From Halomonas sp. H10-9-1 (lineage in GTDB: Bacteria; Pseudomonadota; Gammaproteobacteria; Pseudomonadales; Halomonadaceae): a stretch of 64,000 nucleotides of DNA. Positions 10,234 through 64,000 of the stretch are shown piece after piece (the first letter of the stretch is position 1; each line of letters opens with the position of its first letter). The stretch covers positions 124,001-188,000 of the forward strand of contig NZ_JAMSHO010000001.1 of NCBI RefSeq assembly GCF_040147005.1, written 5' to 3'. The translations under genes were made by a program, and so were the position numbers. The notes beneath the pieces were generated by a model. That model saw only the letters and a program-made list of their open reading frames with translations. It ran no database searches and had not been told where the DNA came from.

Positions 10234-10264
10234 CGAGGGGCTCCATGTCGGGGGGATGTTTTTT

Positions 10265-10906: not shown

Positions 10907-10929
10907 TGCGGCGTCCTCGTCGGTGGGTA

Positions 10930-10948: not shown

Positions 10949-11017
10949 ATTGCTTAACCTTTAGGCAGCAACCCCCTTGCTGTCAAGCGATGGGGAATCT
11001 ATCCACGCAATTGCCGG

Positions 11018-11440
11018 ATGCCTTTCATGAGCGATGACGCCCTCACCAAGCAGGACTTCCAGCGCCTTTCACATTTTCGTTACCAACTGCGCTGCTTCCT
11101 GCGCCAGGGCGATGATATCTGTCGCGAACACGGCCTGACGCCGCTGCAGTATCAGCTGTTGTTGCATCTGCTGGGGTTCGAAGGACGTGAGTGGGCATCC
11201 GTCGGCGAGCTGGCCGAGCGGCTCCAGGCCAAGCATCACGGCACGGTAGCGCTGGTCAATCGGTGCGAGCAGCTGGGCCTGGTGGAGCGCCGCGCGAGCC
11301 GCGGCGACCGCCGGCGTATCGAGGTGCACCTGTTGCCTCGCGGTGCCGAGCTGACCCGGCGCATTGCCGAGCTGCATCAGCCGGAGTTGCGCCATCTGCA
11401 GGAGGAGTTTCATCTGCCGGGTTGGCCCGAGTTCCGCTGA
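11018..11440 (+). CDS. MarR-family transcriptional regulator
   Basis: A 140-residue protein with a winged helix-turn-helix. The segments LTPLQYQLLLHLLGF, SVGELAERLQAKHHGTVALV and LVERRASRGDRRRIEVHLLP are helix 3, the recognition helix and the beta-wing with its DRR tip, all standard for MarR. The ATG at 11018 and the ATG at 11027 are both possible starts, and neither has a clear ribosome site. It probably controls the divergent Yip1-type gene through the 10930-10948 dyad and may also act on the P450 gene that follows 100 bp downstream. The ligand is unknown. Confidence 0.85.
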   Translation: MPFMSDDALTKQDFQRLSHFRYQLRCFLRQGDDICREHGLTPLQYQLLLHLLGFEGREWASVGELAERLQAKHHGTVALVNRCEQLGLVERRASRGDRRRIEVHLLPRGAELTRRIAELHQPELRHLQEEFHLPGWPEFR

Positions 11441-11540
11441 CCCGTGACGAGAGCCGGCTGACGTGGGTCAATGCGTTCCAGGCGTTTTTTTGCTCCCATT
11501 AACCGATTCGTCGCCCCCCCCCTTCTTTCCAGGAGATGAC

Positions 11541-12698
11541 ATGAGTGATACATGCCAGCAGGACTGGGACCCGCGCGCCGAGAATGTGCTGAACGACCAG
11601 ATCTCCGCCTATGACGAGATGCGCCACCGTTGCCCGGTGGCCTTCAGCGACTATCTGCAGTGGTCGCTGTTCCGCCATGCGGACGTGATGCGCGTGCTCG
11701 AGGACCACGAGACCTTCAGCAACGCGGCGAGCCGCCACCTGTCGGTGCCCAACGCCATGGATCCGCCCGAGCATACCCGCTTCCGGCGGATCATCGAGCC
11801 CTACTTCGGCCCCGAGGCCATGGCCGAGTTCGCCCCCCGGTGCCGCGCCATCGCCGAAGGGGTCGTGGCTCGACTGCCCGCCGACGGTGAGGTGGAGGCG
11901 ATGGCCGAGATGGGCCAGGATTTCGCTCTGGAGATCCAGTGCGCCTTCATGGGCTGGCCCACTGCGCTGCATGAGCCACTGCGCGCCTGGGTGAAGCGCC
12001 AGCAGGCCGCTACTCTGGCCCAGGACCGAGAGGCGCTGGGCGAGCTGGCGCTGGAATTCGATGGCGTGATTCGCGAGCAACTGGCCAGCCGCCGAGCGGC
12101 CGGCGATGATGCTCCCGATGACGTCACCACTCGCATCATGAACGAGACCGTTGAGGGGCGCGCACTCTCCGACGAAGAGATCGTCAGCATCCTGCGCAAC
12201 TGGACAGTGGGTGAGCTCGGCACCATCTCGGCGAGCATCGGTATCCTGATGCGCTACCTGGCGGCCGATCCAGAGCTCCAGGGACGGCTGCGCGCCGAGC
12301 GTCAGCTGCTGCCGGCGGCCATCGACGAGGTCCTGCGCCTCGATGCCCCGCTGATGTCCAACCGACGCATCGCTACCTGCCCGGTGGAGATCGGTGGCCG
12401 TCGACTCGAGGCCGGCGAGCGTCTGACGATCCTGTGGGGCTCGGTCAACCGCGACGAGGCGGTGTTCGGCGACCCCGATGAGGTGCGCCTGGATCGCGAC
12501 CCGCAGGACAACCTGCTGTATGGCGCCGGTGTCCACGTCTGTCCCGGGGCGCCGCTGGCGCGCATGGAGCTCAAGGACTTCATGGACGCGCTGCTCGACG
12601 CCACCGTCGACATCACCCTGCTGCCGGGCCGCCCCGCGGTTCGCGCCCTCTACCCCGCCGGCGGCTACTCCGAGGTGCCGCTGCACGTGCGGCGCTAG
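11541..12698 (+). CDS. Cytochrome P450
   Basis: A 385-residue soluble bacterial P450. I chose the ATG at 11541 because of the AGGAGATG ribosome site just before it. The haem-binding loop is YGAGVHVCPGAPLARME with Cys334 as thiolate ligand, and the K-helix ExxR motif is EVLR in AAIDEVLRLDAPLMSNRR. The I-helix reads WTVGELGTISAS, which lacks the usual acid-alcohol AGxDTT pattern, so the oxygen-activation chemistry may be altered (peroxygenase-like or reductive). No ferredoxin or reductase gene is adjacent. It sits between a MarR gene and nirFC, and its substrate is unknown. A terminator at 12721 closes the unit. Confidence 0.92.
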   Translation: MSDTCQQDWDPRAENVLNDQISAYDEMRHRCPVAFSDYLQWSLFRHADVMRVLEDHETFSNAASRHLSVPNAMDPPEHTRFRRIIEPYFGPEAMAEFAPRCRAIAEGVVARLPADGEVEAMAEMGQDFALEIQCAFMGWPTALHEPLRAWVKRQQAATLAQDREALGELALEFDGVIREQLASRRAAGDDAPDDVTTRIMNETVEGRALSDEEIVSILRNWTVGELGTISASIGILMRYLAADPELQGRLRAERQLLPAAIDEVLRLDAPLMSNRRIATCPVEIGGRRLEAGERLTILWGSVNRDEAVFGDPDEVRLDRDPQDNLLYGAGVHVCPGAPLARMELKDFMDALLDATVDITLLPGRPAVRALYPAGGYSEVPLHVRR

Positions 12699-19881: not shown

Positions 19882-20718
19882 ATGCCGTCACACCGTGTTT
19901 CCTATGATCTGGCCGAGGCGCCGCTGGCGTCCGGCGAAGTGGCCATCATCGGCGCCGGCCCCGGTGATCCCGGCCTGCTGACCCTGCGCGCCCTGTCGTT
20001 GATCGAGCAGGCCGACTGCCTGGTCTACGACCGGCTGGTCTCCCGCGAGGTGCTGGCCCTGGCGAGCCCCAGGGCCCGGCGCTTCTACGTGGGCAAGGCA
20101 TCGCGCTGCCATGCGCTGACCCAGGACGAGACCAACGCCCTGCTGGTGCGCCTGGCCAGGGAGGGCCGCCGCGTGGTGCGCCTCAAGGGAGGGGACCCCT
20201 ACATCTTCGGTCGCGGTGGCGAGGAGGCCGAGGTGCTGATCGAGCACGGCGTGGGCTTTCGCGTGGTGCCGGGCATCACCTCGGCCCAGGGCTGTGCCGC
20301 CTACGGGGGCTTCCCGCTGACCCATCGCGACTTCGCCCAGAGCGTCACCTTCGTCACCGGCCACTGCAAGGGCGATGGCGACCTGGCCTTGAACTGGGCC
20401 ACCCTGGCTGCCCCGCACCAGACCACGGTGTTCTACATGGGCCTGGCCAACGCCGAGCTGATCCGCCGCGAGCTGCAGCGTCATGGTCTGCCGGCCGAGC
20501 ATCCGGTGGCCCTGGTGGAGCGCGGCACCACCCCCGAGCAGCGCCAGGTCATCACCTGCCTGGGCGAGCTGGTCGAGACCATCGAGAGAGAAGGGCTGCG
20601 CCCGCCGACCCTGATCGTGGTGGGTGAGGTGGTGCGCCTGGCCGATACCTTGGCCCAGCCCGCGGCGGAGGCGGCCGCCTTCATCGAGGGGGGCGCCCTG
20701 GAGCGGATTGCCCTGTGA
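19882..20718 (+). CDS. nirE: NirE, uroporphyrinogen III C-methyltransferase
   Basis: A 278-residue SUMT that makes precorrin-2 from uroporphyrinogen III, the entry step to sirohaem and haem d1. Motifs are GAGPGDPGLLTLRA (SAM loop), VYDRLVS, RLKGGDPYIFGRGGEE and VVPGITSA. The ATG at 19882 is 19 bp behind nirJ. The stop overlaps the nirN GTG start. A second SUMT (cysG or cobA) elsewhere would serve sirohaem and B12. Confidence 0.96.
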   Translation: MPSHRVSYDLAEAPLASGEVAIIGAGPGDPGLLTLRALSLIEQADCLVYDRLVSREVLALASPRARRFYVGKASRCHALTQDETNALLVRLAREGRRVVRLKGGDPYIFGRGGEEAEVLIEHGVGFRVVPGITSAQGCAAYGGFPLTHRDFAQSVTFVTGHCKGDGDLALNWATLAAPHQTTVFYMGLANAELIRRELQRHGLPAEHPVALVERGTTPEQRQVITCLGELVETIEREGLRPPTLIVVGEVVRLADTLAQPAAEAAAFIEGGALERIAL

Positions 20719-51081: not shown

Positions 51082-51468
51082 TGGAACAGTGGCAGCTAGC
51101 TTATAAGATTTATGGTTCCGAGTGAGTTGTCCCCGTCGCCAATATTGGCGAGATCAGGGAGGGCGTTGCATGGTTGTCTTGCTACGCCAGGCGTGTGGCT
51201 GTTATCGAAATAAGTGTGCGTGTTTAGTGGCGCCTGGTGAGTTTTCGCAAGATGCCATCCTGTGTCTTTACGCGCCGATTCGGAAGTTGATTATACGCTG
51301 GCGGCCGGGGTGCTCCGTGTCCAACGTCCGAAGGAGGTCGAGGATGGCAGTCACGAATCTATCGGTCGCGTACGTATACGTCGGTAGCGCCCCAGTGACA
51401 TTGATGTGCCGATAGCCTGTTATCATGGGCAGGAATTCGCCTGCCCATGCCCAGCTGGAAGCCCCGAT
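51082..51468. other. Gene-free region before cobT
   Basis: This 387-bp gap is AT-richer than its surroundings. I find no supported gene; a 97-codon plus-strand frame at 51122-51415 shows no family, ribosome site or codon pattern. CCAGGCG (51187-51193) can pair with CGCCTGG (51231-51237). A perfect hairpin TGGGCAGG, loop AATTCG, CCTGCCCA lies at 51426-51447, 21 bp before the cobT start codon. A structured leader or the cobT promoter is likely. The B12 riboswitch motifs seen at 56709 are not present. Confidence 0.6.
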
Positions 51469-52539
51469 ATGCTCAATGAAGTCCTCGCCGCCTTGTGTCC
51501 GGCCGATCGCTCCATCGCCGCGACCGTTACCGCTCGCCTGGACAGCCTTACCAAGCCGGTGGGTAGCCTCGGCCGCCTGGAGTCCCTCGCCGTGACGCTG
51601 GCCACACAGACCGGCGAGGCTTTTCCGAGCGTGTCGCCGCCCGGCGTGCTGGTGTTCGCCGCCGACCACGGTGTGGTCGCCGAGGGGGTCTCCGCCTTTC
51701 CCCAGGATGTCACCGCACAAATGGTGGCAAACTTCGTGACCGGCGGCGCCGGCATCAATGTCTTCGCTCGTCAGATCGATGCCCGTCTCGAGGTGATCGA
51801 CGTGGGGGTGGCAGCCGAGCTTGGTGGCGAAGGGGTGGTGGACGAGAAGGTGCGGCTGGGCACCGCCAACATGGCCGAGGCGGACGCCATGAGCCGCGCT
51901 GAGGCCGTGGCGGCCCTCGAGGCGGGCATGCGTGCCGCCGAGCGAGCCATTGACGCCGGATGTCGCTGTCTGATCGTAGGCGAGATGGGCATCGCCAATA
52001 CTACCGCGAGCAGTGCACTGCTCGCGGCCTTCACCGATGTTCCGGTGGCCAGCCTGATCGGGCGGGGTGCCGGCATTGCCGAGAGCCGCCTGGCCCATAA
52101 GCAGGCGGTCATCGAGCGTGCCCTGATGGCGCGCGCCCCGGATCGCGATGATCCCCTCGACGTGCTCGCCAAGCTGGGAGGCCTGGAGATCGCGGCCATG
52201 GCCGGCGCCTACCTGGGCGGGGCGGCGCGCCGCGTGCCGCTGTTGGTCGATGGCTTCATCGCCACGGTGGCGGCGCTCGCTGCCTGCCGGCTCAGCCCCG
52301 CCGCGCGGGACTACCTGATCTTTGCTCACCTCTCTCACGAACCGGGGCATGTGCATGCGCTCGCCGCGCTCGATGCCCAGCCGCTGCTCGACCTGGGGCT
52401 GTGCCTGGGTGAGGGTACGGGGGCAGCGCTTGCCTTCCCGCTGCTGGAATCGGCCACGCGCATGCTCGCCGAGATGGCGACCTTCGACAGCGCCGGTATC
52501 ACCGCCGGCAATGTCGGCAATGTCGATAGCGTCGGCTGA
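51469..52539 (+). CDS. cobT: CobT, nicotinate-nucleotide--dimethylbenzimidazole phosphoribosyltransferase
   Basis: A 356-residue enzyme that makes alpha-ribazole phosphate for the lower ligand of cobalamin. LDSLTKPVGSLGRLESLAVT at the start, FAADHGVVAEGVSAFPQDVT, GEMGIANTTASSALLA and the catalytic Glu in LGEGTGAALAFPLLE are all kept. ATG 51469 heads an almost gapless salvage operon cobT-cbiZ-cobD-cobU-cobS-cobC. Its neighbours use the same codon style. Confidence 0.95.
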   Translation: MLNEVLAALCPADRSIAATVTARLDSLTKPVGSLGRLESLAVTLATQTGEAFPSVSPPGVLVFAADHGVVAEGVSAFPQDVTAQMVANFVTGGAGINVFARQIDARLEVIDVGVAAELGGEGVVDEKVRLGTANMAEADAMSRAEAVAALEAGMRAAERAIDAGCRCLIVGEMGIANTTASSALLAAFTDVPVASLIGRGAGIAESRLAHKQAVIERALMARAPDRDDPLDVLAKLGGLEIAAMAGAYLGGAARRVPLLVDGFIATVAALAACRLSPAARDYLIFAHLSHEPGHVHALAALDAQPLLDLGLCLGEGTGAALAFPLLESATRMLAEMATFDSAGITAGNVGNVDSVG

Positions 52540-52543
52540 GAGT

Positions 52544-53254
52544 ATGGCGCAGGCGATGACCGCAGCGAGGCGGCAAGGGCCCTACCTGGGCGAGCGTATC
52601 GTCCTCGAGGGCGATGCGCGGTGCCTGCATTTCCGCTCGGCGCGGCCGCTGCGCACGGTGAGCAGCGCCTTGGTCGGCGGCGGACTCGGTTGGGCGCGCC
52701 ACTTCTGCAATTTCCACGTCAGCAAGGACTATGCCGGCCATGACCCCGTGGCAGACCTGCATGCCTGGCTGGCAGCGCGTGAGTTGGCTCCGGGGGAGAG
52801 CGTGGCCATGATGACCGCGGTGCGCCTGGCGGAGCTCACGGTGGTGGAGGCGCGTGTCTCCGGCATCTCGCTGACGGTGGCGGTGACCGCCGGGGTGGGC
52901 AATGCGGTGGACATCACCGCGCCGCTTGCCGGCGACCCGCGTCCGGTCGTTGGCACCATCAACACCCTGGTCTTCCTCGACGCCCATCTGACCGACGGTG
53001 CCCTGGTCAATGCCTGCCTCTCGGTGAGCGAAGCCAAGGTGCGTGCCCTGGCCGAGTGCGGCGTGCGCGACCCCCATACCGCCAGCCCGGCGACCGGCAC
53101 CTCCACCGACTGCCTGGCCATAGCCGCCACCCAGCGAGGGGTGGCCACTCCCTATGCCGGCTCCGCCACGGGGCTGGGACGCGCCCTGGGCCGAGCGGTG
53201 TTCGAGGCGACCTGCCAGGCACTCGGGCCGGCGGGCCAAGAGGGATTGACATGA
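52544..53254 (+). CDS. cbiZ: CbiZ, adenosylcobinamide amidohydrolase
   Basis: A 236-residue enzyme that removes the aminopropanol arm of adenosylcobinamide to give adenosylcobyric acid. It thereby salvages pseudo-cobamides or incomplete corrinoids. Family landmarks are SALVGGGLGWARHFCNFHVS, AVTAGVGNAVDI, GTINTLVFLDAHLTDGALVN and ATGTSTDCLAIAA. The start at 52544 follows the cobT stop by 4 bp; 52556 is an alternative. CbiZ needs CbiB to re-amidate, and no cbiB is in this window. Confidence 0.88.
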   Translation: MAQAMTAARRQGPYLGERIVLEGDARCLHFRSARPLRTVSSALVGGGLGWARHFCNFHVSKDYAGHDPVADLHAWLAARELAPGESVAMMTAVRLAELTVVEARVSGISLTVAVTAGVGNAVDITAPLAGDPRPVVGTINTLVFLDAHLTDGALVNACLSVSEAKVRALAECGVRDPHTASPATGTSTDCLAIAATQRGVATPYAGSATGLGRALGRAVFEATCQALGPAGQEGLT

Positions 53255-54360
53255 CGCACGAGGCCGCCTGGCCCTCGCACGGTGGCCAGGGGGCGCCACT
53301 GTTGGCGCGCTTTGGCCTGCCGCCCGACCATCCGTTGCTCGACTTCAGCGCCAACTTGAATCCCCTGGGGCCGCCGGCCTGGGTGGCGGCCCGGCTGGCC
53401 GTCGCGGCCGAGGGCCTCGCCCGCTATCCCGCCCCCGACTACCGCCCGGCGCGTGAGGCGATCGCCCGTGAGGCGGGGGTGACCGCCGAGCAGGTGCTGC
53501 TGACCAACGGCGGCGCCGAGGCGATCTTCCTCACCGCCGCCGGGCATGCCGGCGGGCGGGCGGTGATCGTCCAGCCCACCTTTACGGAGTACGCCCGGGC
53601 CTGCCGCGCCTTCGGCCTGGCCGTCGCTAACCGCGTGCTCGCGGCGCCCGAATTCCGGCTCGACCCGGAGCGCCTGGCGGCGGCCTTGTCGCCCGGCTCG
53701 CTGCTGTTCCTGTGCCGACCCAACAACCCCACCGCCTCCCTGGTGCCGCGCGCGGCCATCGAACGCCTGCTGACCCTGGCGGCGTTGCGCGGCAGCCGGG
53801 TGGTGGTCGACGAGGCCTTCATCGACTTCGTCACGCCGCCCGAGGAGAGCCTGGCCCCGCTGCTGGCGCGTTTCGACAACCTCATCCTGCTGCGCTCCCT
53901 GACCAAGCTCTATGCGCTGCCGGGGCTGCGGGTGGGGTACCTGCTGGCGAGCGAACCCGTGGTGCGCCAACTGCAGGCGTGCCAGCCTCCCTGGAGCGTC
54001 AACCACCTGGCCGCCGACCTGGTGGCGCCGCTGCTGGCCGACGGCGCCTTCCTGGCTCGCACCCAGCAGTGGCTATCCAGCGAGCACCCACGGCTGCAGA
54101 GTGGCCTTGTCGCTGCGGGCCTCGAGGTGGTCCCGAGCCGCGCCAACTTCTTTCTGGTGCGGCCCGCCCTGGAGCCCCGGGCGGCGTCGGGGCAAGGGCA
54201 TGGCGCGGCCCTCTTCGAGCGGTTGCTGCGCTCGGGTATCCTGGCCCGCCATACCCACGGCTTTCGCGGCCTCGATGGTGACTGGCTGCGCGTGGCGCTG
54301 CGCGATCGCGCCGCCAACGACCGCCTGCTCGCCGTCTTGAGCGAGGAGGATGCGCCGTGA
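53251..54360 (+). CDS. cobD: CobD-type PLP enzyme (threonine-phosphate decarboxylase)
   Basis: A 369-residue fold-type I aminotransferase-like enzyme. It decarboxylates L-threonine phosphate to (R)-1-amino-2-propanol phosphate for the nucleotide loop. LDFSANLNPLGPPAWV at the start and RYPAPDYRPAREAIA are CobD-like. The PLP lysine is in LLRSLTKLYALPGLRVGYLL, and RPNNPTASLVPRAAIERLL is the substrate loop. It is called CobC in the Pseudomonas naming. It overlaps cbiZ and cobU by 4 bp each. Confidence 0.92.
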   Translation: MTHEAAWPSHGGQGAPLLARFGLPPDHPLLDFSANLNPLGPPAWVAARLAVAAEGLARYPAPDYRPAREAIAREAGVTAEQVLLTNGGAEAIFLTAAGHAGGRAVIVQPTFTEYARACRAFGLAVANRVLAAPEFRLDPERLAAALSPGSLLFLCRPNNPTASLVPRAAIERLLTLAALRGSRVVVDEAFIDFVTPPEESLAPLLARFDNLILLRSLTKLYALPGLRVGYLLASEPVVRQLQACQPPWSVNHLAADLVAPLLADGAFLARTQQWLSSEHPRLQSGLVAAGLEVVPSRANFFLVRPALEPRAASGQGHGAALFERLLRSGILARHTHGFRGLDGDWLRVALRDRAANDRLLAVLSEEDAP

Positions 54361-54914
54361 TCGTCTTCGTCAGTGGCGGGGCGCGCTCCGGCAAGAGTGG
54401 CGTCGCCGAGCGCCTGGCCCGGGAGTGCCGCCAGGCGCGTGGCGGGGCGCTCTACTACCTGGCCACGGCGACTGTTTCGGACGCCGAGATGGCGGCGCGT
54501 ATCGCTCGCCACCGCCGCGACCGGGGAGACCAGTGGTTAACGCGGCAAGCGCCACTGGCGCTGGGCAGCGCGCTCGACGACATCGAGCCGGGGAGCAGCG
54601 TGCTGCTCGACTGCCTGACGATATGGGCCGGGCGGGCGCTTTTCGAGGCGCGCTATGACAACACCGCAGGCTTGGCCCAGCTCGAGTCGCTGCTGGCCGC
54701 GGCGCGGGCGTGGCCGCTGGACCTGGTGGTGGTCTCCAACGACGTGAACGAGGATGTCCCGCCCCAGGACGCCATGACCTGGCGCTACCTCGCCTTCCTG
54801 CAGCGCCTGCACCGCGTGTTGGCCCAGGAGGCCGATCGGGTCATCGAGGTGGTGGCCGGCGTAGCCATCGACTGGTCGGATGAAAGAACCTTGAAGAAGG
54901 AAGCAAGGCGATGA
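54357..54914 (+). CDS. cobU: CobU, adenosylcobinamide kinase/guanylyltransferase
   Basis: A 185-residue enzyme started by GTG overlapping the cobD stop (GTGA). Walker A is GGARSGKS, the guanylylated His is in IARHRRDRGDQWL, and VLLDCLTIWAGRALFEA follows. In place of the usual CobU NEVGxGIVP motif it reads SNDVNEDVPPQDAMTWRYL. That motif is present in the separate paralogue at 56214. The enzyme converts adenosylcobinamide to the GDP form for CobS. Confidence 0.9.
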   Translation: MIVFVSGGARSGKSGVAERLARECRQARGGALYYLATATVSDAEMAARIARHRRDRGDQWLTRQAPLALGSALDDIEPGSSVLLDCLTIWAGRALFEARYDNTAGLAQLESLLAAARAWPLDLVVVSNDVNEDVPPQDAMTWRYLAFLQRLHRVLAQEADRVIEVVAGVAIDWSDERTLKKEARR

Positions 54915-55669
54915 AGGAGGCGGGTTATGGCCTACTGCTGGCCTTCCAGTTCCTGACGCGGCTGCCGGTACCGGTGACCTGCCCCTGGTCACCGGCCACC
55001 AGTCGCTGGGCGTTGCGCGCTTACCCCTTGGTGGGGCTCGTGGTCGGCGTGCTGCTGGCCGGAACCGCCTCCCTGCTGGAAAGCCTGCTGCCGCCACCGC
55101 TGTTGGCGCTCGCGCTGCTCAGCCTGTGGGTGGCACTCTCCGGAGGATTGCACCTGGACGGCCTGATGGACGTGGCCGATGCCCTGGGCAGCAATGCGCC
55201 CCTGGCCCGGCGCTGGGAGATCATGAAGGACCCGCAGGTGGGCAGCTTCGGTATCCTGGCGCTGGTTTTCCTGCTGGCCTGGAAGGGCCTGATGCTGTGG
55301 GCGTTGCTCACCGCCGGGGCACCCCTGGGCGTGCTGGTGGCGGTGCCGGCGCTGGCCCGCTTCGGTGCCGTGGGACTGCTGCGCCTGGCGCCCTGCGCCC
55401 GCCGCGAGGGGTTGGCGTGGAGGTGGCGCCAGCATCTCGGTCCGTGCGATCTACCGCTGGCCCTGCTGGCACTGGTCCCGCTGTTCTGGCCCCTGGCCGG
55501 TTGGCCGTGGCTGCTCGTCGGCCTGCTGCCCTTTCTGTTCGGCTATGAGCGGGTCATGACGCGCAGCTTCAACGGCATCAATGGCGATATCGTGGGGGCT
55601 GCCATCGAGGGAGGAGAACTATGGCTGTTGCTGATCGCCTGGAGCTGGTGGTCGTTCGTCACGGGCTGA
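54911..55669 (+). CDS. cobS: CobS, adenosylcobinamide-GDP ribazoletransferase
   Basis: A 252-residue inner-membrane enzyme that joins the nucleotide loop, the last step to cobalamin. FLTRLPVPV near the start, GGLHLDGLMDVADALGS (metal-binding DGxxDxxDA), RRWEIMKDPQVGSFGILALV and GYERVMTRSFNGINGDIVGA are classic. About six helices. It overlaps cobU by 4 bp and cobC by 49 bp. Confidence 0.95.
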   Translation: MKEAGYGLLLAFQFLTRLPVPVTCPWSPATSRWALRAYPLVGLVVGVLLAGTASLLESLLPPPLLALALLSLWVALSGGLHLDGLMDVADALGSNAPLARRWEIMKDPQVGSFGILALVFLLAWKGLMLWALLTAGAPLGVLVAVPALARFGAVGLLRLAPCARREGLAWRWRQHLGPCDLPLALLALVPLFWPLAGWPWLLVGLLPFLFGYERVMTRSFNGINGDIVGAAIEGGELWLLLIAWSWWSFVTG

Positions 55670-56262
55670 CGGCCTGGAATATCGAGCGCCGCTACCAGGG
55701 GCAGCGTGACATTCCCCTGCTGCTGCCCGAGGGGCAGCCCGGCCTGGATCGGCTACGCGAGGCGCTACACGGCGAGTGCTTCGATGCCGTTTACGCCAGC
55801 GACCTGATGCGCTGCCGCCAGACCCTGGCGCATGCCTATCCGGGGCGGCACGCCGCGCCGATAGCGCGCTTTGACGCACGGCTTCGCGAGCTCGACTTTG
55901 GCGAGTACGAGGGCAAGCGCTACGCGGAGCTCCAGGCGTTGCCCGCCTACCGTGCCTGGATCGACAGCGTGGGCGAGCAGGCGCCTCCCGGCGGAGAATC
56001 CGCCCGTGCCCTGCGTCAGCGCCTGGGCGAGTGGCTGGGCGAGCTGTTCACCGACGTGGAGTCGCAGGCGCTCCAGCGGGTGCTGATCGTCACCCATGGC
56101 GGCGTGATCCGCGAGCTGCGCCGACGCTTCGAGGCGATCGATTTCTGGGAGGGCAGCGTGGGACAGGCCGAGGGCCGCCGGCTGACCTTCATGCAACGGG
56201 AGGGGAGGTGGCAATGCAGCTCTTCATCGGCGGTGCCTGCGCCGGCAAGCACGAGGCGGTAA
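55621..56262 (+). CDS. cobC: CobC, alpha-ribazole phosphatase (histidine phosphatase family)
   Basis: A 213-residue phosphatase. RHGLTAWNIERRYQGQRDIP carries the catalytic His, FDAVYASDLMRCRQTLAHAY and LRELDFGEYEGKRYAELQ are usual, and VTHGGVIRELRRRFEA holds the second His. It dephosphorylates alpha-ribazole phosphate or cobalamin phosphate. GAGGAGAACT is the ribosome site inside cobS. The last 15 residues are low-complexity (SSSSAVPAPASTRR) and overlap the next gene by 49 bp. Confidence 0.9.
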   Translation: MAVADRLELVVVRHGLTAWNIERRYQGQRDIPLLLPEGQPGLDRLREALHGECFDAVYASDLMRCRQTLAHAYPGRHAAPIARFDARLRELDFGEYEGKRYAELQALPAYRAWIDSVGEQAPPGGESARALRQRLGEWLGELFTDVESQALQRVLIVTHGGVIRELRRRFEAIDFWEGSVGQAEGRRLTFMQREGRWQCSSSSAVPAPASTRR

Positions 56263-56708: not shown

Positions 56709-56918
56709 CTCTCAGGTGCCCTAGGCGCGCGCAGACGCGCCAGGGTGAAACGGGAAGTCGGTGCGCGGTGCTCTTGCCGAGAGTCCGCCAGTCCGACGCT
56801 GCCCCCGCAACGGTGATCGAGTTTAGGAACGCCCTATACCACTGTGCCGCTTGGCACGGGAAGGTGGCTTTCCGGGACGCTTTGCGTCCGCTCGTCAGCC
56901 CGGAGACCGGCCCGAGAG
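56709..56918 (+). promoter_or_regulatory. Cobalamin (AdoCbl-type) riboswitch
   Basis: All core elements are in order: AGGTGCC (56714-56720), the GGGTGAAACGGGAAGTCGGTG-type core (split here as GGGTGAAACGGGAAG and TCGGTG), GACGCTGCCCCCGCAACGG, CCACTGTG and GCACGGGAAGGTGG. The B12 box is GTCAGCCCGGAGACCGGCC. CTCTC (56709-56713) pairs with GAGAG (56914-56918) as P1. Behind it GGAAACA (56923-56929) and TGTTTCC (56940-56946) form a hairpin. AACCCCG (56933-56939) could instead pair with CGGGGTT (56980-56986), a candidate expression platform. It controls the btuB-cobN genes, shutting them off when B12 is plentiful. Confidence 0.95.
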
Positions 56919-57083
56919 CGTAGGAAACATGGAACCCCGTGTTTCCCTTCATGCCGGGTTACGGTGGGTGACCACGAAGCGGGGTTGACGCTGTTGCTGT
57001 CGTTTTCCCTCCCTCGTTCCTTGCCGTCTCGGTGAATGCAGTACCAATGCTGTGCGGGTAGGCACGGCGAGCAAGGGACATTC

Positions 57084-58907
57084 ATGAACACCACACGCAA
57101 CGCTCCGCGGGGCCTGGCCGCCTTCGGCCTGGCGCTTATCCCCCTGGCCATCCAGGCTCAGGCCGAGACCGACAGCCGCGACACCGCCGTCGACCTCAAC
57201 CCCCTGGTCATCACCGCCGCGCTGGCGCCGCGCACCGCCGACGAGACGCTCTCTTCCGTCACCCTGCTCGATGAGGCGACCCTGCGTCGCCAGGATCCCA
57301 CCAGCCTGACCGACCTCTTCCGCGGTCAGCCGGGCGTGGATGTCATCTCCAATGGCAGCTTCGGCAAGAGCAGTAGCGTCTATATCCGCGGTACCGACAA
57401 TAAATCAACGACGTTATTGATCGACGGTATCCGTCTGCGCTCGGCGACCGCGGGTGGTGCGGCGTGGTCATCCCTGGATCCGCGCATGTTCGAGCGCGCC
57501 GAGATCGTGCGCGGCCCGCGTGGCAGTCTCTATGGCGCCGATGCGATGGGCGGGGTGGTGCAGCTGTTTACGCCGGAAGGCGAGGGTGAGCCCGCACCGC
57601 GCATTTCCCTTGGCGGTGGCTCCTTCGATACCCAGCGTTATAGTGCCAGCCTTTCCGGTGCCGAGGGTGGCACGCGCTACCATTTCGCCGCCAGCCGCTT
57701 CGATACCGACGGCGAGCCGATACGCCGTGGCGGAGACGATATGGGCTACGACAACACCACGGCGCTGGCGCGCATGTCGCATACGTGGGATACCGGCGCG
57801 GAAGTCGGGTTACTGGCGTTGCGCGCGCGCGGCAGCAATGAATACGACGGTGGCGAGAATGACTTTGTCCAGCAGGTGACGGGCATCTATGGCGAACTGC
57901 CAATTAGCGGATACTGGCGTAGCCGCGTGACACTCAGCGAGGCGCGTGACGAATACGAGAGCATTGATGATTTTGGCTTCTCGATCATCGATACCCGTAC
58001 CCAGGCCGCGCGCTGGCAGAATACCTTCGCCTTCGGCGCCCACGAACTGGTGGCCGGGGCGGAGTACAGCGAAGACAAGGTGTCCAGCACCAACGACTAC
58101 GAGGTTGATAGCCGCGACAACGTTGCCGTCTTCGCGCAGGGCCTGTTCGATTTCTCTCCTTTCGCCTTGCAGACCAGCCTGCGCTATGACGACAACGAGG
58201 CCTATGGTGATGAGGTAACCGGCAGCTTGGCACTGGGCTATGACCTGGATACTCACCACACTCTGCGGGCAAGTTATGGCACTGCCTTTAGGGCGCCCAC
58301 CTTCAATGATCTCTATTGGCCTGGCAGTGGCAACTCCGATCTCGATGCTGAAACCTCCGAAACGTTCGAGGTCGGCGCTCGTGGCCAGTACCGTGCCTGG
58401 TTCTGGGATGCGGCGCTTTATCAGACCGATATCGATGACATGATCGACTGGGCGCCGACAGAGAGCGGCCTGTGGGCTCCACAGAATATCAATGAGACGC
58501 GCCTCCGTGGTGCGGAGCTCGCGGCCGGTGCGGAGCTGGGCGACTGGACCCTGCAGGCCGCGCTCACCTATCTCGACCCGGAGGATCGCGGTGAGGGAGA
58601 GAGCCGCGGCAACGACCTGCCGCGCCGCGCCACTCAGAGCCTGCGCCTGGACGTTGATCGTGAGCTCGGCGACTGGTCCATGGGCGGCTCCTGGGTCGTC
58701 CAGAACCATCGCTACAATGACGCCGCCAACCAGGAGCGCCTGGCCGGCTTCGGCCTGCTCAACCTGCGCGCCGGCTGGGACTTCGCACCGCACTGGTCGG
58801 CGCGACTGACGGTCGACAACGCGCTCGACAAGGAGTACGAGACCGCTCGCGACTATATCAATGCCGGTCGCGCTGCCTTCCTCAGCGTGCACTTCGGGGC
58901 CCTGTGA
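57084..58907 (+). CDS. btuB: BtuB-type TonB-dependent outer-membrane receptor
   Basis: A 607-residue receptor. ATG 57084 gives a signal peptide ending near QAQA. The TonB box region is NPLVITAALAPRT, the plug has FRGQPGVDVISNG, VYIRGTDNKSTTLLIDGIR and RAEIVRGPRGSLYGADAMGG. The 22-strand barrel ends ALDKEYETARDYINAGRAAF. The riboswitch upstream makes cobalamin or another corrinoid the probable ligand. The stop overlaps the cobN start (TGATG). Confidence 0.93.
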   Translation: MNTTRNAPRGLAAFGLALIPLAIQAQAETDSRDTAVDLNPLVITAALAPRTADETLSSVTLLDEATLRRQDPTSLTDLFRGQPGVDVISNGSFGKSSSVYIRGTDNKSTTLLIDGIRLRSATAGGAAWSSLDPRMFERAEIVRGPRGSLYGADAMGGVVQLFTPEGEGEPAPRISLGGGSFDTQRYSASLSGAEGGTRYHFAASRFDTDGEPIRRGGDDMGYDNTTALARMSHTWDTGAEVGLLALRARGSNEYDGGENDFVQQVTGIYGELPISGYWRSRVTLSEARDEYESIDDFGFSIIDTRTQAARWQNTFAFGAHELVAGAEYSEDKVSSTNDYEVDSRDNVAVFAQGLFDFSPFALQTSLRYDDNEAYGDEVTGSLALGYDLDTHHTLRASYGTAFRAPTFNDLYWPGSGNSDLDAETSETFEVGARGQYRAWFWDAALYQTDIDDMIDWAPTESGLWAPQNINETRLRGAELAAGAELGDWTLQAALTYLDPEDRGEGESRGNDLPRRATQSLRLDVDRELGDWSMGGSWVVQNHRYNDAANQERLAGFGLLNLRAGWDFAPHWSARLTVDNALDKEYETARDYINAGRAAFLSVHFGAL

Positions 58908-61900
58908 TGGCGCGGGGGGCGATGGCGCTGCTGCTCGCCCTGCTGCCGGTGCTGGCCTCGGCGGGCACGCTGGTCGGCGTCGTTTCGGAGCGCTCGGCCG
59001 CCGAGCTCGCCGCCGGTGCGGCGCGCTTCCTCGATGCTCACCCCGGGCATGAGGTGGTCCTGCGCACGCCGGAGCAGCTGGCCGAGGCGGACGATGCCGA
59101 GCTCGCCGCGCTCTTCGACGGCGCCGATGCGCTGCTGCTGGCGGCGGTGTTCGGCGACCAGGTGGGGCGCCTGGCGCGGCTGGTCGACAGCGCCGCCGCC
59201 CGGCGCGACTTCCCCATCCTCGCCATCAACGGCGACAGGCGCCTGACGCGCCTGTCGCGGCTGGGCGGTGTGCGCCTGCTGGCCGGGCTCGACGCCGCGA
59301 CACTCGGCGAGCTGGTGGCAGGCCCTGCCCCCGACGTGGCGGCAGCCGAGCACCTGACGGCACAACTCGAGCGCTTCCCCACCCAGGCTGGGTGGCTGAC
59401 CGGGCGTGCCTACTACCAGGGGCGTAGCCCCGAGCACCTCGATGGCCTGCTGCGCTGGCTGCTCGCCGCGGCCGGCCATGAGCTGGACGTGCCCGAGCCA
59501 TCGCCGCGAGCGGCGATTCGCTACTATCGGCCATGGCTCCACGCCCGCCCGGGGGGCGGCGATGATGCGCCCACTACCGACCCCACCAGCCTGGGGCTGG
59601 GGGCCGGGCCGGTCGTGGCGATCCTCGACCTCGACAGCGGCGACCGCCCCGGCGACCGTGAGCTGCTCGAGGGTGCCTGTGAGGCACTCGAGGCGCACGC
59701 CATCCAGTGCGTGGCGGTGCTGGCGCGCTGGGGTGGGGCGACCCTGGCGGCGCTCGAGCGCCTGCCCGAGACGCTCGGCGAGGCGAGCCTGGCCGGGATC
59801 CTCAGCCTGCAGGACTTCACCCTGGGCGGGGGCGCGGGGCGGCGCGCGGCCAGTGAAGTGCTTGGCCAGCTCGACGTGCCGGTGATCAAGGGGGTGCGCC
59901 TGGCCGAGCGCAGCGAGGCACAGTGGCGACTCTCGCACGATGGCCTGCCGCGCGAGTCGGTGCACTACCAGCTGGCGATGCCGGAGCTGCAGGGCATCAG
60001 CCAGCCGATGGTCCTGGCGGTGGCCGCGCCGCGCGAGATCGATGAGCGCACCGGGGTGGCGTTGACGCTGTCGCGGCCACTCGAATCGCGCCTCGGCGCC
60101 GTCGCCGAGCGCTTCGCCCGCTGGCAGCGCCTGCGGGCGCTGGACAACGCCGACAAGAAGGTGGCGCTGATCTACTACAACCACCCGCCCGGACGGCAGA
60201 ATGTCGGCGCCGACAACCTCGACGTACCGGCCTCGCTCTACGCGATGCTCACCCGGCTGCGCGAGGCCGGCTACCACACCGGCGAGCTGCCGGAGAGCCC
60301 GGAGGCACTGCACGCGATGATCCAGGCGCGCGGGGTCAATCTGCCGGAGGACCGCGGCGCCCTGGAGGGCATGGTCGGGCAGGTGCCGTCGCTGACCGCA
60401 GAGGCGTACCGCCGCTACTTCGCGACGCTGCCGGCGACCATCCGCGGCGAACTCGTGCAGGGCCCGCTGGGTTATCTGCACGCCCGCCTCGAGCGGGCCG
60501 ATGCGCTGGGCGAACCGGAGCTGGTTCACGAGGTGCTGGAGCGCGTCGCCAAGGATCTGCTCCACCTCATCGAGCAGCATGACCACCCGGCCCGGGCCCG
60601 GGCGCTGGACCTGCTGGAGCAGTACGTCACGGGCTGGGAGAAGCACCTCGCCCATGCGGAGGAGAGCGAACTCGACACGCTCGAGGCGCTGCGCGATGGC
60701 CTGGTGGCCACCGGCATTCCCGGGCTCTCCGGCTGGGGCGAGCCGCCGGGGCGCTCGATGGTTATCGATGACGAGATGCTCTTCCCGGGGCTGCAGTTCG
60801 GCAACGTCTTCATCGGGCCGCAGCCGCCACGCGGCTGGGAGCTGGACGAGGAACTGCTGCACGCCAATACCACCTTCCCCCCGACCCACCAGTACCTGGG
60901 CTTCTACCACTGGCTGCGCGATCACTTCGCCGCCGATGCCCTGGTCTACGTGGGGCGTCACTCCACGCGCGAGTTCCTGCCGCGACGCCGGGCGGGACTG
61001 GCCGAGGACGACTATCCGGAGCTGCTAGGCGGCAACCTGCCGTTGATCTACCCGTACATCGTCGATGGCGTGGGCGAGGGCATCCAGGCCAAGCGACGTG
61101 CCCTGGGGGTGATGATCGGCCACCTGACCCCGCCGCTGGCTGCCACCGAGCTCTACGACGACCTGCTCGAGCTGCGCCAGCTGGTCGAGACCTTCGAGGT
61201 GGCGACCGACCCCGATGGCCCCACGCGGCGCCGCGCCGTGGTGATGTTGCGCGAACAGATCGAGGGCCTCGAGCTGACCGAGGCGTTCGAGCGCGAGATC
61301 GCCTCCGACCTGGGCTTGGCCGCCGAGGAGGTGAGCCTGGATGAGGTCGCCGCGGAGCTGCTGGTGCACGAAGCGGGGCACTACGTCACCGACATGCAGG
61401 AGCGCTTCATGCCGCTGGGGCTGCATGTGTTCGGCCGCGACTGGGACGCCGAGGCCGTCGATACCCTGCTCGACTCGATGGGAGGCGAGGGCGACGAGCG
61501 CGAGCGCCGGCGCGAGTGGGTCGAGGCCTCGCCGCGTCACGAGCGGGAGAGCCTCCTGGGCGCCCTGGAGGGGCGCTTCGTTCCCCCGGGGCCGGGCAAC
61601 GACCCGCTGCGCACGCCGGAGGTGCTGCCCACCGGGCGCAACTTCCATGCGCTCTCCAGCGACCTGGTGCCGACCCGGGTGGCCTGGTCGCTGGGCAGCG
61701 AGATGGCGGCCACCGCCCGTGGGCGTGACGCCGAGGCGACGGAGGGGAGCGAGGCGCTGGTGCTGTGGGCCTCGGACACGGTGCGCGATGAGGGGGTGAT
61801 GATCGCCTTCGGCCTCGACATGCTGGGCGTCAAGCCGCGCTGGAACTCGCGTGGCATCGTCCGGGGGCTCGAGCGCCTGTCGCTGGGGGAACCTGGCGAT

Positions 61901-63307
61901 GCGGCTGATACGCCACGCACGGCGCGGCGCGATGTGCTGTTCACCACCTCGGGGCTGTTCCGCGATCTCTACGAGGACCAGCTGGTGTGGCTCGACCTCG
62001 CCGTGCGCCTGGCCCTCGATGGGGCGAGCGAGACCATCCGCAGCGCGCATCCGCAGCTCGCCGGGGCGCTGGCGGCGGCGCTCGCCCCGCTGCCCGAGGA
62101 GATGCGTGACCCGGGCGCCGAGGCGCTCGCCGACAACCGCGTCGCGGCGCGCTGGGTGGCCGATACCCGGGAGCTGCTAGCCCGCGGCGAGGCGGCCGCT
62201 GCGGCCGGGGAGCAGGCGGCGTGGCGGGTGTTCGGCACCGCCCCGGGCGCCTACGGCGCCGGCGTCAATCGCCTGGCGTCGCGCTCCAGTGCCTGGGAGG
62301 CGCGTGACCAGTTGGGCAGTGCATATCGCCGGCGCATGGGACATGTCTACGGCAAGGAGCAGGGCGGCGAGTCGGCTCACGCGGCCTTCGATGCCAACCT
62401 CGCCCGGGTCGGGCGCACCTACCTGGGGCGCGCCAGCCACCTCTACGGGCTGCTCGACAACGACGACGGCTTCGACTTCCAGGGTGGGCTCTCCAATGCC
62501 GTGGAGCAGTTGACCGGCACCCCGCCGGCCAACCGCGTGCTCACCCACGCCGACCCCGACAACCCGCGCGTCGAGAGCCTGGAGCGCGCGCTGCTCGGCG
62601 AGCTGCGCGCGCGCAACCTCAACCCCCAGTGGCTGCGCCCGCTGATGGAGCACGGCTACGCCGGGGCCCGCACCATGGGCAGCGACTTCCTCGACAACCT
62701 GTGGGGCTGGCAGGTGACGAGCCCGCAGGTGGTGCGCTCCTGGGTGTGGGACGAGGTCGATGCCGTCTACTTCCAGGACCGCCACGGCCTGGGGCTGGAC
62801 GACTTCCTGGCCGCGGGGCACAACGTCCATGTCAAGACGCACATGCAGGCCACGGCGCTGCTCGCCGCCAAGCGCGGCTACTGGCAGGCCGATGCGGCGA
62901 CCCTGGAACGGCTCACTGGCGAGTTCGCGGAGGCGGTGATCGAGCACGGCCTGCCGGGCAGCGGCCACGCCCACCCCGACCATCCGCTGCTGCCGTGGCT
63001 CGCCGAGCGCCTGGACGACGAGCGGCGCGAAGCCTTCACGGCGGTGATCGAGGCGGCGCGGCTCGCGAGACGCGAGCCCCAGGCCGCGCCGACCACCATC
63101 CGCGAGGTCACACCCCAGGCCGCACTGGCCGAGCAGCCGCCACCGGCGCCAGTGGCGCCAGTGGCGCCAGTGGTCGGTGCCGAGGCGGCGGAGGAGGAAC
63201 TGGCGGCCGCCGCCGAGGGGGGCACGCCGTTACTGCCCTGGCTGCTCGCTCTCGCGGCGCTGCTGCTGCTGATGGGCGGCTTCGCTTACGGGAGACGCGC
63301 ACGATGA
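58907..63307 (+). CDS. cobN: CobN-like chelatase with signal peptide and C-terminal membrane anchor
   Basis: A 1466-residue CobN-family protein. The segments YYNHPPGRQNVGADNLDVPA, YPYIVDGVGEGIQAKRRALG, IGHLTPPLAATELYDDLLEL and GFDFQGGLSNAVEQLTGTPP match the CobN/BchH large subunit. Unlike cytoplasmic cobaltochelatase, it begins with a signal peptide (MARGAMALLLALLPVLASAG). It ends with a linker APVAPVAPV, one helix (PWLLALAALLLLMGGFAYG) and a basic tail RRAR. This predicts a periplasmic enzyme held in the inner membrane. No cobS/cobT-type AAA+ partners are nearby; an ExbB-like and a DUF2149 protein follow instead. Metal insertion into, or removal from, a corrinoid or other tetrapyrrole are both possible. 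Confidence 0.9.
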   Translation: MARGAMALLLALLPVLASAGTLVGVVSERSAAELAAGAARFLDAHPGHEVVLRTPEQLAEADDAELAALFDGADALLLAAVFGDQVGRLARLVDSAAARRDFPILAINGDRRLTRLSRLGGVRLLAGLDAATLGELVAGPAPDVAAAEHLTAQLERFPTQAGWLTGRAYYQGRSPEHLDGLLRWLLAAAGHELDVPEPSPRAAIRYYRPWLHARPGGGDDAPTTDPTSLGLGAGPVVAILDLDSGDRPGDRELLEGACEALEAHAIQCVAVLARWGGATLAALERLPETLGEASLAGILSLQDFTLGGGAGRRAASEVLGQLDVPVIKGVRLAERSEAQWRLSHDGLPRESVHYQLAMPELQGISQPMVLAVAAPREIDERTGVALTLSRPLESRLGAVAERFARWQRLRALDNADKKVALIYYNHPPGRQNVGADNLDVPASLYAMLTRLREAGYHTGELPESPEALHAMIQARGVNLPEDRGALEGMVGQVPSLTAEAYRRYFATLPATIRGELVQGPLGYLHARLERADALGEPELVHEVLERVAKDLLHLIEQHDHPARARALDLLEQYVTGWEKHLAHAEESELDTLEALRDGLVATGIPGLSGWGEPPGRSMVIDDEMLFPGLQFGNVFIGPQPPRGWELDEELLHANTTFPPTHQYLGFYHWLRDHFAADALVYVGRHSTREFLPRRRAGLAEDDYPELLGGNLPLIYPYIVDGVGEGIQAKRRALGVMIGHLTPPLAATELYDDLLELRQLVETFEVATDPDGPTRRRAVVMLREQIEGLELTEAFEREIASDLGLAAEEVSLDEVAAELLVHEAGHYVTDMQERFMPLGLHVFGRDWDAEAVDTLLDSMGGEGDERERRREWVEASPRHERESLLGALEGRFVPPGPGNDPLRTPEVLPTGRNFHALSSDLVPTRVAWSLGSEMAATARGRDAEATEGSEALVLWASDTVRDEGVMIAFGLDMLGVKPRWNSRGIVRGLERLSLGEPGDAADTPRTARRDVLFTTSGLFRDLYEDQLVWLDLAVRLALDGASETIRSAHPQLAGALAAALAPLPEEMRDPGAEALADNRVAARWVADTRELLARGEAAAAAGEQAAWRVFGTAPGAYGAGVNRLASRSSAWEARDQLGSAYRRRMGHVYGKEQGGESAHAAFDANLARVGRTYLGRASHLYGLLDNDDGFDFQGGLSNAVEQLTGTPPANRVLTHADPDNPRVESLERALLGELRARNLNPQWLRPLMEHGYAGARTMGSDFLDNLWGWQVTSPQVVRSWVWDEVDAVYFQDRHGLGLDDFLAAGHNVHVKTHMQATALLAAKRGYWQADAATLERLTGEFAEAVIEHGLPGSGHAHPDHPLLPWLAERLDDERREAFTAVIEAARLARREPQAAPTTIREVTPQAALAEQPPPAPVAPVAPVVGAEAAEEELAAAAEGGTPLLPWLLALAALLLLMGGFAYGRRAR
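63145..63171 (+). repeat. In-frame 9-bp tandem repeat in the cobN linker
   Basis: GGCGCCAGT is repeated three times and encodes Ala-Pro-Val units in the linker before the C-terminal helix. It is flexible, frame-neutral and outside the catalytic part. Confidence 0.9.
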
Positions 63308-63756
63308 ACTTGGACCTGACCCACGCCACGCTGGACGTCATGGGCACCCTGGTGGAGTGGCTGCTGACGCCGGTCATCCTGGTGCTGCTGGCCCTGGTGG
63401 CGCTGTCGCTGTGGGAGGCGGGGCTCGCCATCGGCGAGCGCAGCGGCGGCATCCGGCGCCTGGTGGCGGCACGCCGTGGCGATCGGCTCGCGGCGCGAGC
63501 CCGTCGCGCCATCGACCGCGCCGACCTGCTGGCGCGCATCGGCCCCATGCTGGGCCTGATGGGCACCCTGATCCCGCTGGGGCCGGGGCTCGCCGCCTTG
63601 GGCAATGGCCAGCTCGACGTGTTGGCCCAGGCCGTCACCGTGGCCTTCAATACCACGGTGATGGGGCTGTTGATCGGCATCCTCGGCTTCCTGCTGGGAC
63701 GGCTGCGGCGACGCTGGTACGACGCCGCCATGGCGCAACTGGAGGCAGCCCCATGA
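63304..63756 (+). CDS. MotA/TolQ/ExbB-family proton channel protein
   Basis: A 150-residue protein with three helices. VEWLLTPVILVLLALVALSL is TM1; RIGPMLGLMGTLIPLGPGLA and VTVAFNTTVMGLLIGILGFL form the conserved ExbB/TolQ pore pair, including the Thr-rich NTT in TM3. The start overlaps the cobN stop by 4 bp and its stop overlaps the DUF2149 gene by 4 bp (ATGA). It should form the stator of an ion-driven motor coupled to the CobN-like enzyme or its substrate transport. Confidence 0.9.
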   Translation: MNLDLTHATLDVMGTLVEWLLTPVILVLLALVALSLWEAGLAIGERSGGIRRLVAARRGDRLAARARRAIDRADLLARIGPMLGLMGTLIPLGPGLAALGNGQLDVLAQAVTVAFNTTVMGLLIGILGFLLGRLRRRWYDAAMAQLEAAP

Positions 63757-64000
63757 GCATTCCCGAGTATCGACGCAGCCGCTTCGACAATGCCGACGAG
63801 GAGCCCATGGGGCCGCTCGCCAACCTGGCCGACATCATGCTGGTGTTCGCCGTGGGGCTGATGGTGGCGTTGGCCGCCTCGCGTGACACGGGGTCGCGCG
63901 GCGGCGTGGAGCTCGAGGCCGGACGCGAGCTGCCCGAGCTGCCGGCGGGAATGGGGACATCCGGCAGCGGTTATGAAAGCGTGGGGCGCGTCTACCGCGA
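63753..64000 (+). CDS. DUF2149 protein, ExbD-like, 3' end outside the window
   Basis: The first 82 residues are seen: a polar start MSIPEYRRSRFDNADEEPMG, then a helix ANLADIMLVFAVGLMVALAA with an acidic residue at its N-terminal end, as in ExbD/TolR (Asp in the membrane helix). The periplasmic part has GSGYESVGRVYR, the DUF2149 signature. It starts in an ATGA overlap with the ExbB-like gene, so CobN-ExbB-DUF2149 form one translated unit. By analogy it would be the rotor/plug partner of the stator. The function of DUF2149 is not established. Confidence 0.85.
   Translation, partial: MSIPEYRRSRFDNADEEPMGPLANLADIMLVFAVGLMVALAASRDTGSRGGVELEAGRELPELPAGMGTSGSGYESVGRVYR

Follow-up and report, generated by a model that had tools for sequence, protein, structure and literature searches.

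A cobalamin-riboswitch operon of Halomonas sp. H10-9-1 with a CobN-family protein, an ExbB-like protein and a DUF2149 protein, and its proposed role in corrinoid salvage

We are interested in a stretch of 64,000 nucleotides from the genome of Halomonas sp. H10-9-1 (contig NZ_JAMSHO010000001.1, positions 124,001 to 188,000), here called the window, and in the operon at its end: a cobalamin riboswitch followed by genes for a BtuB-like TonB-dependent receptor, a CobN-family class I chelatase subunit, an ExbB-like protein and a DUF2149 protein (Table 1). The host genome measures 3.79 Mb and is 99.99% complete. The riboswitch is the sole Rfam match at gathering score within the window, and the three junctions between the four genes are four-base stop/start overlaps (GTGA, ATGA and ATGA), as expected of the single overlapping operon that a preliminary description had read from the letters alone. 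Past the window end, on the same strand, the DUF2149 gene is followed with a one-base overlap by btuF, and then by btuC, btuD, btuR, cobQ and bluB. The top NCBIfam model of the receptor is the B12 receptor TIGR01779, at 455 bits and under the cut-off of 599.7, and we therefore name it ‘BtuB-like’; its true start may lie slightly downstream of 57036, and for CobN too an alternative start a few codons downstream is possible.

The topology of CobN was judged from the sequence and from hydropathy in 19-residue windows alone. The two main hydropathy maxima are at the N terminus (residues 1-19, 1.93) and near the C terminus (residues 1443-1461, 2.25, then YGRRAR), with a weak interior maximum at residues 65-83 (1.61), which supports the signal peptide and C-terminal membrane anchor claimed earlier. 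The top match of a predicted model of residues 201-1399 is the cobaltochelatase CobN 7c6o. The CobN/ChlH fold and the catalytic histidine of the first motif, H686, are present, and this histidine is invariant in both of our CobN alignments (A1, 31 sequences; A3, 34 sequences). The NCBIfam CobN equivalog cut-offs are missed (TIGR02257, 492.7 vs 822; NF004645, 530.6 vs 1619).

One relative, HmuS, is the haem de-chelatase of the Bacteroidota operon hmuYRSTUV (PMC12583661, PMC13227078, PMC10434189). Its H538A variant is inactive (PMC12583661). The HmuS motif LSLDHxxEFMGG, with His1209 and Glu1212, does not occur in the window CobN, which has LLDNDDGFDFQGG instead. The phmmer alignment of the two proteins begins at about residue 290 of HmuS, and the HmuS haem ligands Met79 and His254 belong to its head and neck.

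Table 1. Features of the window around the CobN gene (positions in the window; CobN residues numbered from the GTG start).
Feature	Position	Strand	Basis
Cobalamin riboswitch aptamer, RF00174	56697-56929	+	108.8 bits vs gathering score 31.5
BtuB-like TonB-dependent receptor, 623 aa	57036-58907	+	PF00593 (TonB-dependent receptor barrel) 198 bits; PF07715 90 bits
CobN-family class I chelatase subunit, 1467 aa, GTG start	58904-63307	+	PF02514 783.5 bits
Signal-peptide-like CobN N terminus	58904-58966	+	hydropathy and sequence
Active-site motif GRHST, G684-T688	60953-60967	+	H686 aligned to second His of superfamily motif HFG(T/A)HG
Second cavity motif LLDNDDGFDFQGGL	62450-62491	+	D1188 aligns with HmuS His1209, D1191 with HmuS Glu1212
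CobN C-terminal transmembrane anchor, residues 1443-1461, basic tail	63230-63286	+	Kyte-Doolittle hydropathy (KD) 2.25
ExbB/TolQ/MotA-like protein, 150 aa	63304-63756	+	PF01618 (MotA_ExbB) 40.6 bits vs cut-off 22.9
DUF2149 protein, 98 aa	63753-64000, cut by window end (stop at 64049 in window-style coordinates)	+	PF09919 34.7 bits vs cut-off 27.1
CobT phosphoribosyltransferase	51406-52539	+	NCBIfam, open reading frames (ORFs)
CbiZ/CbiS-like amidohydrolase	52322-53254	+	NCBIfam, ORFs
CobD/CobC threonine-phosphate decarboxylase	53056-54360	+	NCBIfam, ORFs
CobU	54357-54914	+	NCBIfam, ORFs
CobS	54911-55669	+	NCBIfam, ORFs
Alpha-ribazole phosphatase	55621-56262	+	NCBIfam, ORFs

Relatives were sought in genomes of the Genome Taxonomy Database with a 31-sequence profile, and of the 307 relatives found the best 80 loci were analysed; their titles name Gammaproteobacteria, one Betaproteobacteria bin, Nitrospirota, Nitrospinota and Myxococcota, and the nearest relatives of the window CobN carry the names Halomonas and Billgrantia. 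An ExbB gene directly follows CobN in 59 of these 80 loci and a DUF2149 gene is found in 57, the contig ending there in the two ExbB loci that lack the latter (L023, L069). From the CobN stop to the start of the ExbB ORF there are at most 200 bp in all 59 loci and in our own. The 21 loci without ExbB comprise 20 from Marinobacter and one on a short contig (L067). A separate Pfam survey of 398 Pseudomonadota genomes found DUF2149 in 17, at 18 loci, and in every one of the 18 it clusters with both ExbB and CobN.

Among 48 loci in which riboswitches were mapped, by coordinate range without contig name, 42 have one at gathering score upstream of CobN on the same strand (40 of 42 counted by script, plus L057 and L060, where ORF starts are over-extended). 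A second reading, made directly on the DNA of the loci, covered 17 of these 42 (L040, L045, L048, L049, L051, L075, L082, L087, L057, L060, L077, L088, L032, L046, L072, L076 and L083), and all 17 positions were confirmed; further in-range matches, one to three per locus, lie on other contigs in L032, L040, L049, L051, L057, L059, L070, L075, L077, L083 and L088, and none of them is counted. Two loci have a riboswitch under the gathering score (L080, 25.1 bits, a match that did not reappear on direct re-reading; L086, 29.8 bits), and L044, L059, L070 and L081 have none on the CobN strand. Twelve further loci were read directly, six of them with a riboswitch. Ten loci are without one; in eight of them CobN is no more than about 1.9 kb from the start of the contig, whereas for L070 and L081 the locus DNA examined truly contains none. 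In 20 of the 48 mapped loci (two of them under the gathering score) about 200 bp or less separate the riboswitch from CobN itself, and for 17 of these no BtuB-like ORF is seen in the locus DNA examined. Four Nitrospirota loci have a cobalamin riboswitch directly after DUF2149 and before another TonB receptor (L048:15064-15229, L047:15064-15227, L050:6687-6850 and L052:5950-6116).

Within 9 kb of CobN in 81 loci, our own included, the commonest neighbours are BtuR (45), a CobC-like aminotransferase, BtuF and CobB (40 each), BtuD (38), BtuC (37), CbiB (35), CobQ (32), BluB (25), CobU (23) and CobS (21); these families come from BLAST clustering, with one member naming each, and the counts are approximate. 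The region around the window CobN is likewise a corrinoid salvage region. Several NCBIfam matches in the upstream cluster (51406-56262) fall under equivalog cut-offs, and its ORF 5' ends are over-extended. Past the window, transposase-like frames (L004:13762-15566) stand straight after bluB, where the corrinoid operon ends.

In 20/20 Marinobacter loci CobN lacks ExbB, DUF2149 and the C-terminal hydrophobic segment together (highest 19-residue hydropathy, 0.13), whereas the segment is present in 60/60 CobN proteins with ExbB next to them, the weakest being L076 (0.98) and L059 (1.17); L053 is frameshifted, and its helix was identified by eye from a different frame. It is present too in CobN of the 17 DUF2149-survey loci outside our own genome (lowest value, 1.32). 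The DUF2149 model finds nothing in 16/16 Marinobacter genomes and recovered 4/4 positive controls. Three Marinobacter CobN sequences in our tree nest inside the anchored clade, and the absence of anchor, ExbB and DUF2149 is therefore a derived loss, probably a single event; a Fisher test of anchor against stator, which takes loci as its units, must be read with this in mind. This joint loss is the best evidence that the anchor, ExbB and DUF2149 form one functional unit. A BtuB-like gene is retained in 20/20 Marinobacter loci (that of L020 is cut by the contig end), and therefore the stator serves CobN: the pattern indicates a partnership with CobN, not with the receptor. The fixed partnership of CobN with ExbB and DUF2149 proposed at the outset thus holds, in this narrower form. 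Many of the apparently soluble Marinobacter CobN proteins (e.g. L014, L016, L018) have in place of the anchor a short cysteine-bearing tail (e.g. ending VSSC). One Marinobacter mobilis assembly carries the btuB-cobN-btuF cluster twice, on separate contigs (L029, L041), apparently a duplication or an assembly repeat.

The two putative stator proteins are small. DUF2149 consists of one transmembrane helix with an aspartate, a linker and a C-terminal hairpin motif; the aspartate, D27, is invariant in 17/17 sequences (alignment A2), and an AF2 model of the L009 homologue has a helix at 20-47 and strands at 80-82 and 89-91 (mean pLDDT 68). The best stretch of the PF09919 match of our own protein covers its N-terminal part only, and the DUF2149 proteins of the B12 class and of the other classes match one another in hhalign at 99.9%. 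The preliminary description had called the protein ExbD-like. The helix and its aspartate may resemble those of ExbD, hhalign aligning D27 to the ExbD aspartate with a probability of 49% (seven ExbD sequences, from 30 loci). Membership in the ExbD family is unsupported: our protein is absent among the PF02472 matches of its own genome, and a search of the PDB with the A2 profile found no ExbD. Against solved structures DUF2149 gives chance matches only, as a single sequence and as a profile alike. The ExbB-like protein, whose subfamily is aligned in A4, has a MotA as its top match among solved structures when searched as a single sequence, with an E-value of only 0.28.

CbiC is needed by both corrin pathways. 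We searched 49 carrier genomes, our own included, for CbiC and for GATase_3 genes. CbiC was not found in 46 of the 49, our own among them, and these carriers are therefore without corrin-ring synthesis; the positive genomes are two Thioalkalivibrio and one Azotobacter. Our genome has a single CobN, and its three TP-methylase matches include no ring methyltransferase, being two uroporphyrinogen methyltransferases and a 16S rRNA enzyme. One siroheme-type uroporphyrinogen-III C-methyltransferase gene lies at C1:1488324 and a second within the window, at about 19939-20571. The window CobN thus does not belong to a de novo corrin pathway, and acts in salvage.

A GATase_3 gene is nevertheless present in all 49 carriers. 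In 38 there are two strong ones (>75 bits), which we take to be CobQ and CobB, so that most carriers should be able to complete a ring starting from cobyrinate; one of the remaining 11 has only a CobB-like match. Our own CobB lies far from the operon (C1:2309771-2310994, 409 bits), while a CobB family, named from one member, is found close upstream of CobN in L040, L047, L048, L050 and L052, and just past DUF2149 in L059 and L076. CobB-like matches of about 1.23 kb occur in 35/46 CbiC-negative carriers vs 9/199 other CbiC-negative genomes of the class sample (4/6 vs 9/199 in the class sample alone), a contrast between related sequences for which P values overstate the evidence. The division by alignment length is our own, and NF002204 matches outside this class we presume to be DsrN-like. 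If all NF002204 matches over the cut-off are counted, the background rises to 76/199 and the contrast shrinks to 76% vs 38%.

A tree of 58 CobN sequences separates 46, which we call the B12 clade, from 12 others (FastTree support 0.98 and 1.0). Among the 17 survey loci from other genomes, five (L118-L122) group with the window CobN, in its clade, while the other twelve (L106-L117) fall outside. The first motif is GRHST in the B12 clade and GTHG(S/T) in 10/12 of the others, and the first histidine of the superfamily motif is a tyrosine in the branch of Halomonas, Marinobacter, Thioalkalivibrio and Aquisalimonas. The second motif of the clade is DN(D/N)DxFD, or DNNDAYD in L118, with aspartate at the positions of both HmuS His1209 and Glu1212 in 46/46 aligned sequences. 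The CobN of CobNST also has aspartate at the His1209 position, as do 9/12 of the non-B12 relatives (histidine in L114 and L115; L113 is unaligned there). To judge from alignment, this aspartate counts against chemistry of the HmuS type and would not alone single out corrins. The two Pseudomonadota proteins of L114 and L115 carry an HmuS-like His/Glu pair (STDHPFEYLGG) and are candidate haem de-chelatases outside Bacteroidota. A riboswitch precedes the TonB receptor in L106 and a same-strand receptor about 5 kb upstream in L117, both outside the B12 clade. The L106 locus (Pseudomonadota, G302) reads on the minus strand: riboswitch 11407-11596 (121.3 bits), TonB-dependent receptor 9193-11235, ExbB, DUF2149 and CobN 1565-5497. 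B12 control of such modules may therefore have arisen twice.

In class I chelatases the AAA+ partners consume ATP, which may serve to distort the ring so that the metal can be inserted (PMC7689651). Since CobN is predicted to lie on the ATP-free side of the membrane, where its anchor ties it to an ExbB-type channel, replacement of the AAA+ motor by a stator is the simplest reading. BtuB would deliver a corrinoid to the periplasm, where CobN, exported by its signal peptide and held at the inner membrane by its C-terminal helix, would act on it. ExbB and DUF2149 would form an ion-channel stator that acts on this helix and supplies the mechanical work given to other class I chelatases by ATP-fed CobS/CobT or ChlI/ChlD. 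The product would be imported by BtuFCD, adenosylated by BtuR and completed by CobB, CobQ, CbiB, CobU and CobS. The likeliest chemistry would be that cobalt is inserted, or put back, into corrins from other microbes that are incomplete or lack the metal (e.g. hydrogenobyrinic-acid-like ones), and the CobN-like structure and second motif lean towards insertion.

These parts do not all carry the same confidence. We regard it as probable that CobN works in the periplasm, coupled to the stator, in corrinoid salvage. The explanation as a whole, with cobalt insertion into corrins, falls a little short of an even chance, and cobalt insertion by CobN, taken by itself, is held more tentatively still. 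Its most specific form, an ion-gradient-driven class I chelatase in which ExbB-DUF2149 pulls the C-terminal helix and so inserts cobalt into scavenged metal-free corrins in the periplasm, we consider doubtful. Of the ion-powered periplasmic corrinoid chelatase first suggested, then, the exported protein (by hydropathy), the salvage setting and the B12 riboswitch stand, while the energy coupling and the metal chemistry, like the response to B12 and the periplasmic substrate, are inferred. The further suggestion that CobN removes cobalt fits badly.

Several observations weigh against the proposal. Marinobacter CobN keeps its motifs intact without anchor or stator, so that a motor is not indispensable for every CobN function, and in L067, which has the anchor, the 1.2 kb left of the contig show no ExbB. 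The second-motif aspartate is not specific to the B12 clade. By our count 11/49 genomes lack the CobB/CobQ pair, so salvage at the level of cobyrinate is not universal, and three carriers make the corrin ring. Metal-free corrins as a natural nutrient are undocumented in the literature examined. Lastly HmuS, the sole biochemically tested relative with the same partners, removes metal, and in vitro needed NADH, not an ion gradient (PMC12583661).

The foremost alternative, which we think unlikely but take seriously, is energised handling of corrinoids with no metal chemistry: CobN would be a periplasmic corrinoid receptor, and movement of the stator would release its ligand or pass it to BtuF. 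Most carriers are indeed salvage-only, btuF lies immediately 3' in Halomonas-type and most Marinobacter loci, CobN of Marinobacter appears to be a soluble periplasmic protein beside BtuF, and for HmuS a likeness of its head and neck domains to periplasmic binding proteins has been reported (PMC12583661). An invariant H686, however, is needless in a mere carrier, a role that BtuF already fills.

Appreciably less likely is a de-chelatase like HmuS, which would take cobalt or a wrong metal from corrinoids or other tetrapyrroles. Cobalt is practically irremovable from an intact corrin, and its removal would be self-defeating because a B12 riboswitch should turn the module on when B12 is short; moreover, 46/49 carriers cannot reuse the cobalt in a new ring, and the metal ligand His1209 is an aspartate here. 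What speaks for removal is kinship: HmuS, which strips iron from haem (PMC12583661), has the same partners, namely a TonB-dependent receptor, an ExbB-like protein and DUF2149 (PMC10434189); the link to haem-locus relatives drawn beforehand is supported. Zur binding at the promoter of the Pseudomonas aeruginosa PA1922 cluster would also fit metal release (PMC8531726, PMC8456098, PMC13083405).

It is very unlikely that ExbB and DUF2149 serve BtuB as an accessory pair for energising TonB, with CobN just a neighbour. The published description of hmu draws HmuU/HmuV in this way with HmuR (PMC12583661), and a TonB receptor gene occurs in the stretch read of 12/12 non-B12 loci, but Marinobacter keeps btuB without the pair, the riboswitch often adjoins CobN where no BtuB-like ORF is seen, our genome has three ordinary ExbD-family loci elsewhere, and Methanosarcina acetivorans, which has no outer membrane, has both PF09919 and PF02514, counted genome-wide. 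An ordinary CobN of aerobic de novo synthesis, exported by chance or mis-called, as public records annotate close relatives, is hardly credible given its sub-threshold NCBIfam scores, signal-like start and anchor, and is rejected for our genome, which lacks CbiC and the ring methyltransferases.

A limited search of the open literature, read in part, found neither a proposal of an ion-driven CobN nor a riboswitch-CobN-ExbB-DUF2149 operon, and the available parts of PMC3621897, PMC2667541, PMC2864759, PMC545781 and PMC7857532 hold nothing on either; nor did the literature searched yield an earlier description of the clade under a B12 riboswitch, of the way it is concentrated in ring auxotrophs or of the Marinobacter co-loss. 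Our results suggest a function that can be tested for DUF2149 and for ‘CobN’ genes outside corrin-synthesis genomes, bear through the stator-chelatase pairing on the role drawn for HmuU/HmuV in haem-using gut bacteria, and indicate that a step outside the cytoplasm, and perhaps a substrate too, has been overlooked in the way bacteria share corrinoids. If insertion driven by an ion gradient proves true, it would mean a new motor, a new place for metal insertion and a new class of nutrient, and ring-auxotrophic bacteria could subsist on corrin precursors set free by other organisms.

It is useful, finally, to set the operon beside known systems. CobN of CobNST has the AAA+ partners CobS and CobT, serves de novo synthesis and is not known to be exported. 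The window CobN shares with CobNST (PDB 7c6o, 9uk9, 9fpc) the fold, the catalytic histidine and the second-motif aspartate, but by hydropathy has a signal-like start and a C-terminal transmembrane segment, in a host without ring synthesis. Like ExbB-ExbD, TolQ-TolR and MotA-MotB, the putative stator combines an ExbB-family channel with a single-helix partner bearing a transmembrane aspartate; unlike them, its DUF2149 is predicted to lack a folded ExbD-like periplasmic domain, has no PF02472 match, and its target is taken to be CobN.

Two closer likenesses are taken from their published descriptions. On plasmid pSZ77 of Geobacter lovleyi, cobN-exbB-exbD-tonB places CobN beside ExbB near cobalamin genes; the 2012 report found no CobS/CobT and stated the biochemical role to be unknown, and, in contrast to our locus, it records ExbD and TonB and a host with corrin-ring genes (PMC3403914). 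P. aeruginosa PA1922-PA1925 likewise has a TonB receptor, a CobN-like gene, an ‘ExbD-like’ gene and an uncharacterised gene, but is under Zur/zinc control, with no role assigned in print (PMC8531726, PMC8456098, PMC13083405). For Chlorobaculum tepidum, chelatase genes by a cobalamin TonB receptor were the subject of an earlier guess that they put cobalt into cobalamin taken up by the cell (cited in PMC8620254). The hmu operons, which carry ExbB-like and DUF2149 genes (PMC10434189, PMC13227078), also unite a TonB receptor with a large CobN-family protein in one operon, and their HmuS, which is bound to the membrane, is placed on the periplasmic side in published drawings. They differ in their haem substrate, iron response, HmuY and HmuT, in His1209/Glu1212 against Asp/Asp in the B12 clade, and in an anchor described as N-terminal where that of the window CobN is C-terminal. 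Related systems are thus known in hmu, PA1922-PA1925 and Geobacter, and the version under a B12 riboswitch suggests an unrecognised step in the scavenging of B12-like molecules.

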